DNA of 37,582 bases from Candidatus Nitrosopumilus sp. (GTDB lineage: Archaea; Thermoproteota; Nitrososphaeria; Nitrososphaerales; Nitrosopumilaceae), in contig QOOS01000011.1 in assembly GCA_003331425.1 (NCBI GenBank), positions 1 to 37,582 of the forward strand, given 5' to 3'. Under the pieces are notes generated by a model. The model did not search any database. It saw only the letters and a program-made list of their open reading frames with translations, and was not told the origin of the DNA. Positions 15,434 through 18,356 of the stretch are shown here, piece after piece. Each line of letters starts with the position of its first letter. Position 1 is the first letter of the stretch. A program made the translations under genes and the position numbers.

Positions 15434-15521
15434 AGCCCGATAGTCTAGTGGTCAAGGATTCTGCCCTCTGGATCTCAAGAGTGGATAGGCGGAGACGGCA
15501 GTTCGAATCTGCCTCGGGCTA
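15434..15521 (+). tRNA. tRNA-Gln(CTG) with 15-nt intron
   Basis: Acceptor AGCCCGA/TCGGGCT with A73 at 15521; T-arm GGCAG-TTCGAAT-CTGCC; variable loop AGAC. The anticodon stem is CTGCC (15461-15465) with GGCGG (15488-15492), leaving 22 nt in between. Removing 15 nt (15472-15486) after position 37, the standard archaeal site, leaves loop CTCTGGA with anticodon CTG (15468-15470). The intron can fold into a weak bulge-helix-bulge. Mature length is 73 nt and CCA is not encoded. A TATA-like ATTATATTC at 15400-15408 is at promoter distance. Other splice positions would give a Ser or a stop-suppressor anticodon, so Gln is best. Confidence 0.88.
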
Positions 15522-15528
15522 CTGGTAA

Positions 15529-17656: not shown

Positions 17657-17686
17657 CACTAGTTTGATCGAATTTTAGCACTAGTA
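17657..17686. repeat. Direct repeat GCACTAGT, 22 bp apart
   Basis: GCACTAGT occurs at 17657-17664 and 17679-17686, two helical turns apart, each with a palindromic ACTAGT core. They lie between the flavoprotein promoter and the promoter of the candidate RNA at 17731, so they could be an operator serving either side (inference). Confidence 0.4.
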
Positions 17687-17702
17687 GAAATTATGAGCGC
17701 TG

Positions 17703-17709
17703 GTTATAT
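17703..17709 (+). promoter_or_regulatory. TATA box for candidate RNA gene
   Basis: TTATATA within GGTTATATACC. Transcription would start near 17731, just before the repeated hairpins. The next plus-strand gene has its own TATA-like box at 17899-17906, so this promoter probably serves a separate RNA. Confidence 0.5.
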
Positions 17710-17730
17710 ACCAAAATTGACTTAAGATAA

Positions 17731-17885
17731 TTACAAGAACAAGTCTGTCATCTACAAACAATCGTTTGGGATCTTAAGACGAACACTGTCATCAGAAAAG
17801 GGACACTTTCTGATCTTAAGTGGCATGGGCTCTCATCGTACACCTCGCGGTAACGATCTTAAGCCCAAAAACTTCTTTTTTTAAA
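17731..17885 (+). ncRNA. Candidate structured RNA with three tandem hairpin modules
   Basis: This fills most of the 328-bp gap at 17600-17927, which has no protein gene. Three modules share the plan CTSTCATC, variable stem-loop, GATCTTAAG: 17745-17778, 17786-17820 and 17830-17863. The inner arms differ in sequence but still pair. In module 1, CAAAC pairs with GTTTG. In module 2, ATCAGAAA (17791-17798) pairs perfectly with TTTCTGAT (17807-17814). In module 3, ATCGT pairs with ACGAT, with ACC pairing GGT inside. A reverse-complement copy, CTTAAGAT, is at 17721-17728. A TATA box precedes the modules and a T-run (17874-17881) follows. No known family was recognised. The modules could instead be DNA sites for a regulator. 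Confidence 0.5.
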
Positions 17886-17927: not shown

Positions 17928-18356
17928 ATGAAAACAATCGCTGTAGTTGCAATTGTAGTTGTAGTTGGTGTGTTTATTGGAATAATAGCTACTGCTGATT
18001 ATGGTGATTTTGTCAAAGAGCGGGAGTTGAGAAATCTTGAATTATCATATTATGAATTACAACAAAAAACTCAGCAATGTGAAGAACTGTCTGGTTATTC
18101 TCAAGACACATGTAAAGAAGAATTAAAAAGATTTGAAGCATCTCATGAAAAAATGATTCAAAGATATGAAGGATTTACAGGTCTTGAAGTTTATCACATG
18201 GCAAAGGATGGAAAAAATTCTCTACTTCAAAGCAATGAGTTTTGGGATACATATGAAGAACAACTTCAGAATTGTCGTGAAACTTGGATTGGTAATGAGG
18301 AGCAACTCAATTCATGTATACAACAAGTTCATGTTGATTTAGATATAGAAAATTAA
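17928..18356 (+). CDS. Membrane-anchored helical protein, unknown function
   Basis: Not recognised. The 142 residues start with a single membrane helix or uncleaved signal (residues 3-23, IAVVAIVVVVGVFIGIIATA). A Glu/Gln-rich, probably helical extracytoplasmic domain follows. Two cysteine pairs, QQCEELSGYSQDTCKEE and NCRETWIGNEEQLNSC, are spaced as in helical-hairpin disulfides (CX10C and CX13C). The ATG is about 26 bp after a TATA-like ATAATATC at 17899-17906, so the mRNA is probably leaderless and the RNA element upstream is not its leader. Confidence 0.75.
   Translation: MKTIAVVAIVVVVGVFIGIIATADYGDFVKERELRNLELSYYELQQKTQQCEELSGYSQDTCKEELKRFEASHEKMIQRYEGFTGLEVYHMAKDGKNSLLQSNEFWDTYEEQLQNCRETWIGNEEQLNSCIQQVHVDLDIEN

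Follow-up and report, generated by a model that had tools for sequence, protein, structure and literature searches.

Evidence for a lineage-specific family of small RNAs in the Nitrosopumilaceae, built on a repeated hairpin module with a near-invariant internal loop

The stretch of DNA analysed here (the window, 37,582 nt in full) is contig C3 of a 1.24-Mb assembly. It contains three similar modules, at 17742-17781, 17783-17823 and 17827-17866 (together 17742-17866), which are predicted to form the arms of one small RNA. The parts of the gene are as follows, in window coordinates:

17684..17703 (+): upstream promoter element GTAGAAATTATGAGCGCTGG (GTAGAAAT element), about 20 nt 5′ of the TATA box; it also precedes arrays in relatives and some of the single-hairpin genes
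17704..17710 (+): TATA box TTATATA; a TATA box lies 37-42 nt 5′ of arm 1 in 52 of 52 distinct arrays
17733..17882 (+): predicted small RNA of about 150 nt with a four-way junction, from fold and covariation; both ends are predicted, the start from TATA spacing and the end from the T-run
17735..17739 (+): 5′ strand of the closing stem P1, AAGAA (MFE and centroid; swap test on 52 arrays)
17742..17781 (+): arm 1, with outer stem, internal loop GUC/CUUA, inner stem and apical loop AAUC (covariation, one-arm model, fold)
17783..17823 (+): arm 2, the same module, internal loop GUC/CUUA (covariation, one-arm model, fold)
17827..17866 (+): arm 3, the same module, internal loop CUC/CUUA (covariation, one-arm model, fold)
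17873..17877 (+): 3′ strand of P1, UUCUU (swap test, fold)
17876..17882 (+): T-run, the likely transcript end (sequence; T-rich 3′ flanks in relatives)

Elsewhere in the window, a tRNA-Gln (CTG) at 15434-15522 is called as 89 nt, a length pointing to either a short intron or an extended variable arm.

A sequence-only reading of this DNA had placed the three modules at 17745-17778, 17786-17820 and 17830-17863. The sites are correct and the bounds too short, because an outer stem of 4-5 bp lies partly beyond them. As that reading described, all three modules begin with CTSTCATC and end with GATCTTAAG, each folds back on itself when folded computationally, and the spacings are 41 and 44 bp between starts and 42 and 43 bp between CTTAAG ends. 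The pattern TCATC-N12-25-GATCTTAAG occurs three times in the window compared with 0.01 expected from shuffles, while CTSTCATC-N12-25-GATCTTAAG occurs three times in the entire 1.24-Mb assembly, only at these modules, and its reversed control 0 times. The array is indeed bracketed by a TATA box and a T-run (17704-17710 and 17876-17882), and the downstream gene is preceded by a TATA-like box of its own, as had been noted. The palindrome CTTAAG, taken earlier as the fixed unit, gives way to the internal-loop letters CUUA: the AG that follows them belongs to the outer stem, and in relatives the G changes with its partner. Nor is CTTAAG enriched over the window (5 copies, 10.4 expected), and a supposed fourth, inverted half at 17721-17728 falls outside the predicted transcript, on its upstream side, and is not conserved among relatives.

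For the segment 17733-17882, the predicted fold has an energy of -39.2 kcal/mol (z -4.0; equalled by 0 of 200 shuffles) and forms a four-way junction in which P1, missed by the earlier reader, pairs 17735-17739 with 17873-17877. In every arm, a near-invariant asymmetric internal loop, [G/C]UC facing CUUA, separates the outer stem from the inner stem. Homologues were collected by DNA similarity, which found them in 28 of 80 genomes, all 28 belonging to the same genus, and 25 homologues were aligned by sequence with MAFFT (alignment A1), the structure being taken from the folding of one member. Standard pairs fill 95.5% of the cells in the 30 pairs of A1, and slid structures pair at most 43.5%. 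Two-sided change is seen in 14 of the 30 pairs, with 44 two-sided compensatory cells compared with 12.8 +/- 3.3 in shuffles; paired positions, whose lack of conservation had been named as a possible refutation of an RNA, are thus kept and covarying in these 25 relatives. There are 52 G-U/U-G cells and only 5 A-C/C-A cells, an asymmetry that identifies the plus strand as the RNA. An RNA from the minus strand gives the better single-sequence fold, yet it was rejected, as the substitution pattern fits the plus strand only.

P1 was assessed with a swap test of the 5′ and 3′ flanks of arrays, which is independent of any alignment. Summed over the 52 distinct arrays, duplex energies come to -503.5 when each 5′ flank is paired with its own 3′ flank, compared with -375.7 +/- 16.9 for swapped partners (0 of 5000 permutations, a count that yields no formal probability, since the arrays are related). 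The stem is strong and compensated in several lineages, e.g., GAAAAGGUG/CACCUUUUC and CAAGACC/GGUUUUG, and weak in the window's own lineage, where it is AAGAA/UUCUU only. The covariation count of a second alignment, A2, is biased, its modules having been chosen by a pattern that requires pairing; A1 and the swap tests are therefore what we rely on. Throughout, the letters of the stems are free provided that pairing holds, and close relatives differ in the apical loops of arms 2 and 3. The structure, strand, module, distribution and promoter conservation are established by comparison of sequences, and on this basis 17733-17882 (+) is an RNA gene, with transcription predicted as drawn. One of the two proposals in the sequence-only reading, a three-module structured RNA of about 150 nt with a TATA box and a T-run, is thereby strongly supported, through covariation, wobble pairs and conserved promoters.

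A covariance-model search, which had been proposed for Thaumarchaeota, finds the RNA in most Nitrosopumilus genomes. The model of the whole three-arm RNA (R1) has a match in 81 of the 95 genus genomes at an E cut-off of 0.001, scoring 60 bits or more in 70 of these, and it also matches several further genera of Nitrosopumilaceae; its weaker matches are a two-arm RNA (L091), two-arm paralogues and single hairpins. A one-arm model from 55 modules (R2; E-values of home-made models are rough) recovers from the window's own genome the three arms and one single hairpin (G000:C10:82969-83009, minus strand), with no further match up to E 10, in mRNAs or elsewhere. Matches to R2 are present in 94 of 136 Nitrosopumilaceae genomes at E up to 3e-4, with 2-13 modules in 19 of 21 chosen genomes, and in 44 of 299 genomes of the phylum, all of them Nitrosopumilaceae among the matches listed. 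Where genomes are named, every exact-pattern match to arm 2 falls in a Nitrosopumilus, marine group I or thaumarchaeal record. As far as sequence matches tell, and among those listed, the family is confined to Nitrosopumilaceae; that it is a real lineage-specific family of small RNAs is close to certain. Two other origins for the module were rejected: viral origin, because none of the 18 stretches from two viral-contig pattern scans exceeds 22.9 bits under the module model, a chance-level score, and mimicry of rRNA or tRNA, because R2 has no other match in the own genome at the limit given above.

Single-hairpin genes with the same loop occur in most complete Nitrosopumilaceae genomes. The smallest set, one array and one single hairpin, is that of the small window genome, and assembly G082, which we take to be N. 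maritimus SCM1, has an array at C1:324575-324726 (plus strand) and two single hairpins, at C1:520106-520146 and C1:1004150-1004190 (both minus strand). Of 69 single hairpins, 68 carry CUUA as the 3′ loop strand and 68 carry NUC as the 5′ strand (GUC in 46, CUC in 16), and the module is 40-43 nt long. Their outer stem extends past the 5-bp core, the fifth further position pairing in 54 of the 69 compared with 41% when partners are swapped. Single hairpins and arm 1 often have in common an apical (U)AAYC loop with a C-G closing pair.

An exact CTAAATA box precedes 35 of the 69 single hairpins, mostly 33 nt 5′ of the module, and ten further ones have a CTTTTAT box at 38-43 nt. The combination of GTAGAAAWNRTNAGY and a TATA box has five occurrences in six genomes, four of which precede genes of the RNA family, including the window array. 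Upstream of the array, a divergent FAD oxidoreductase gene adjoins it in 50 of 52 distinct loci, and the gene downstream changes between lineages (nitroreductase-like in 37 loci, like the window ORF at 17928 in 8). The single hairpins lie between genes, in most cases with over 150 nt separating them from the upstream ORF. TATA boxes at fixed spacing, a common upstream element and intergenic sites therefore point to the array and the single hairpins being independent transcription units, whose control would be at least partly shared. In L148-L217, repeated half-sites such as TTCATACAAATCATCAG and GTAGAAATNATCAGTA lie 20-60 nt 5′ of the single-hairpin TATA box, about one to two helical turns apart, and look like tandem transcription-factor sites.

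No established class accommodates the family. At the gathering thresholds of Rfam 15 only a tRNA is found in the window, so that the earlier remark that no known family was recognised holds there, and a permissive Rfam 15 scan of ten family loci returned chance matches only, elsewhere in the loci. One of the closest parallels is with the bacterial CsrB/CsrC and RsmX/Y/Z RNAs, which likewise have their own promoters, carry one to many fixed motifs in hairpins and occur as several RNAs per genome; a common upstream promoter element, as is found before the RsmX/Y/Z genes, is a further likeness. In CsrB/RsmZ, however, the motif is GGA in an apical loop, whereas in the archaeal family it is an internal loop, and the apical loops are AAUC-like or variable; CsrA/RsmA (PF02599) was found in 0 of 21 genomes, in a search whose positive controls gave signal. 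Archaeal H/ACA guides are also encoded by their own genes, with one to three hairpins and an internal loop in each, but their pocket is larger and varies with the target, whereas the loop of the family is 3 + 4 nt and near-invariant, and no k-turn was seen. The kink-turn bound by L7Ae is likewise an asymmetric internal loop, one strand of which has 3 nt, and recurs in several RNAs; the family differs in having no G.A/A.G tandem beside the loop in its plus-strand sequence.

The plus strand of 17733-17882 has no RUGAUGA, the motif sought for a C/D box sRNA; Ro60/TROVE (PF05731), the partner of Y RNAs, was found in 0 of 10 genomes, one control giving signal; and the 52 loci do not share the conserved downstream gene looked for in a riboswitch. 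On the features tested, the RNA falls outside the H/ACA and C/D guides, the Y RNAs, the riboswitches and the CsrB RNAs. An RNA of a type III toxin-antitoxin system (ToxI) is unlikely; by Pfam, the neighbours of the array in the window are not toxins. A search for the ToxN family (PF13958) matched 0 of 10 genomes, but its control was silent too. Tan1, a structured non-coding RNA of 229 nt and unknown function from planktonic marine group II Euryarchaeota (PMC5069720), resembles the family in kind and in habitat; it comes from another phylum, no repeated module is described for it, and it is set apart by that description.

What might these RNAs do? That the modules bind something is plausible, and a protein that reads the loop is favoured because the internal-loop letters are fixed within freely covarying stems. 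In the mechanism that we propose, P1 would hold the three hairpins, each presenting the fixed [G/C]UC/CUUA loop to one protein; the three-arm RNA and the single hairpins would be switched on together, and jointly they would collect the protein, setting its free amount for other work. Such a sponge mechanism is preferred because several RNAs with one or three copies of a site and a common promoter element recall CsrB/C and RsmX/Y/Z. By this analogy, it is nearly an even question whether the three-arm RNA is a multivalent decoy that sequesters one RNA-binding protein. More tentative is the broader proposal of a regulatory system new to Archaea, in which a loop-reading protein of Nitrosopumilaceae would be controlled by jointly expressed decoys. 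The simple form of the decoy model, with target mRNAs that bear the hairpin, is unsupported, since the own genome has no further copies of it; the protein's other ligands would therefore differ in look, or the RNA would act on the protein directly.

An alternative, rather unlikely, is that the RNA is part of a stable ribonucleoprotein or acts directly on a core machine, without competing sites in mRNAs. Models for direct action are 6S RNA on RNA polymerase and 7SK on a kinase. The absence of additional hairpins in the own genome would be expected, as would the retention of at least one copy in most complete Nitrosopumilaceae genomes, the set shrinking to one array and one single hairpin in the small window genome; the wide variation in copy and arm number across species (from 1 to 13 or more modules) would, however, be unusual for a fixed part. 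It is improbable that these are base-pairing RNAs, with apical loops as antisense seeds and the internal loop as a handle for a chaperone such as Lsm. The apical loop often common to single hairpins and arm 1 would suit this role, but those of arms 2 and 3 vary among close relatives while the internal loop is unchanged, which argues against antisense seeds there.

A ligand-sensing, riboswitch-like RNA, in which the internal loops would be tandem pockets, is more doubtful still. Invariant loop letters in covarying stems fit a small-molecule pocket as well as a protein site, but the downstream gene differs by lineage and has its own TATA-like box, and the single hairpins are units of their own far from genes. 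The other proposal of the sequence-only reading, an array of DNA operators read by a CTTAAG-binding regulator, has in its favour the 42-43 bp between module ends and four CTTAAG within 143 bp, but next to no likelihood. It was rejected on covariation and wobble pairs, as the compensatory substitutions include G-U and the final G of CTTAAG follows its pairing partner; in addition, the module keeps a fixed spacing 3′ of TATA boxes and is found in single copies as well.

Of the readings considered, the protein decoy is the one that we prefer, and the family itself looks previously undescribed, absent from Rfam and without known relative, the sponge-like mechanism proposed for it being familiar from bacteria. 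Earlier ocean metatranscriptomes with unassigned small RNAs may contain these transcripts. No description of them was found in openly accessible papers, and no thaumarchaeal non-coding RNA was found described in the Red Sea mdRNA-Seq paper. In the ocean, Nitrosopumilaceae rank with the most abundant archaea and account for much of the ammonia oxidation, and little is known of their post-transcriptional regulation. Besides adding a family to those in Rfam, the repeated recognition loop, present in cultured species, provides a concrete bait for an RNA-binding regulator.

Finally, we note several variants of the genes. In second loci of Nitrosopumilus and genus g36 (paralogues L074-L079, L090 and L108), arms 1 and 3 are kept and another conserved element (CTGAGACCAAAG..CCTCCCC..GCATTGGAATCAG) stands in the place of arm 2. 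In genus g36, L094, L100 and L106 have a second conserved, self-folding element, GTTCAGnCCCCGAGGGGAAACTCAAGTCTGAAC, about 20 nt 3′ of the single hairpin, which may form a pseudoknot. L148 and its orthologues (L149, L150, L153, L157-L159, L164, L166, L174, L190, L193 and L195) constitute a second core RNA gene, which has one hairpin preceded by a long stretch of conserved sequence, CATATGATCGCTCTAATTGA..TTGTCAATG..TTGAACAA..CTTTTATGA; in SCM1 the gene of this group adjoins a gene for a blue-copper-like protein.
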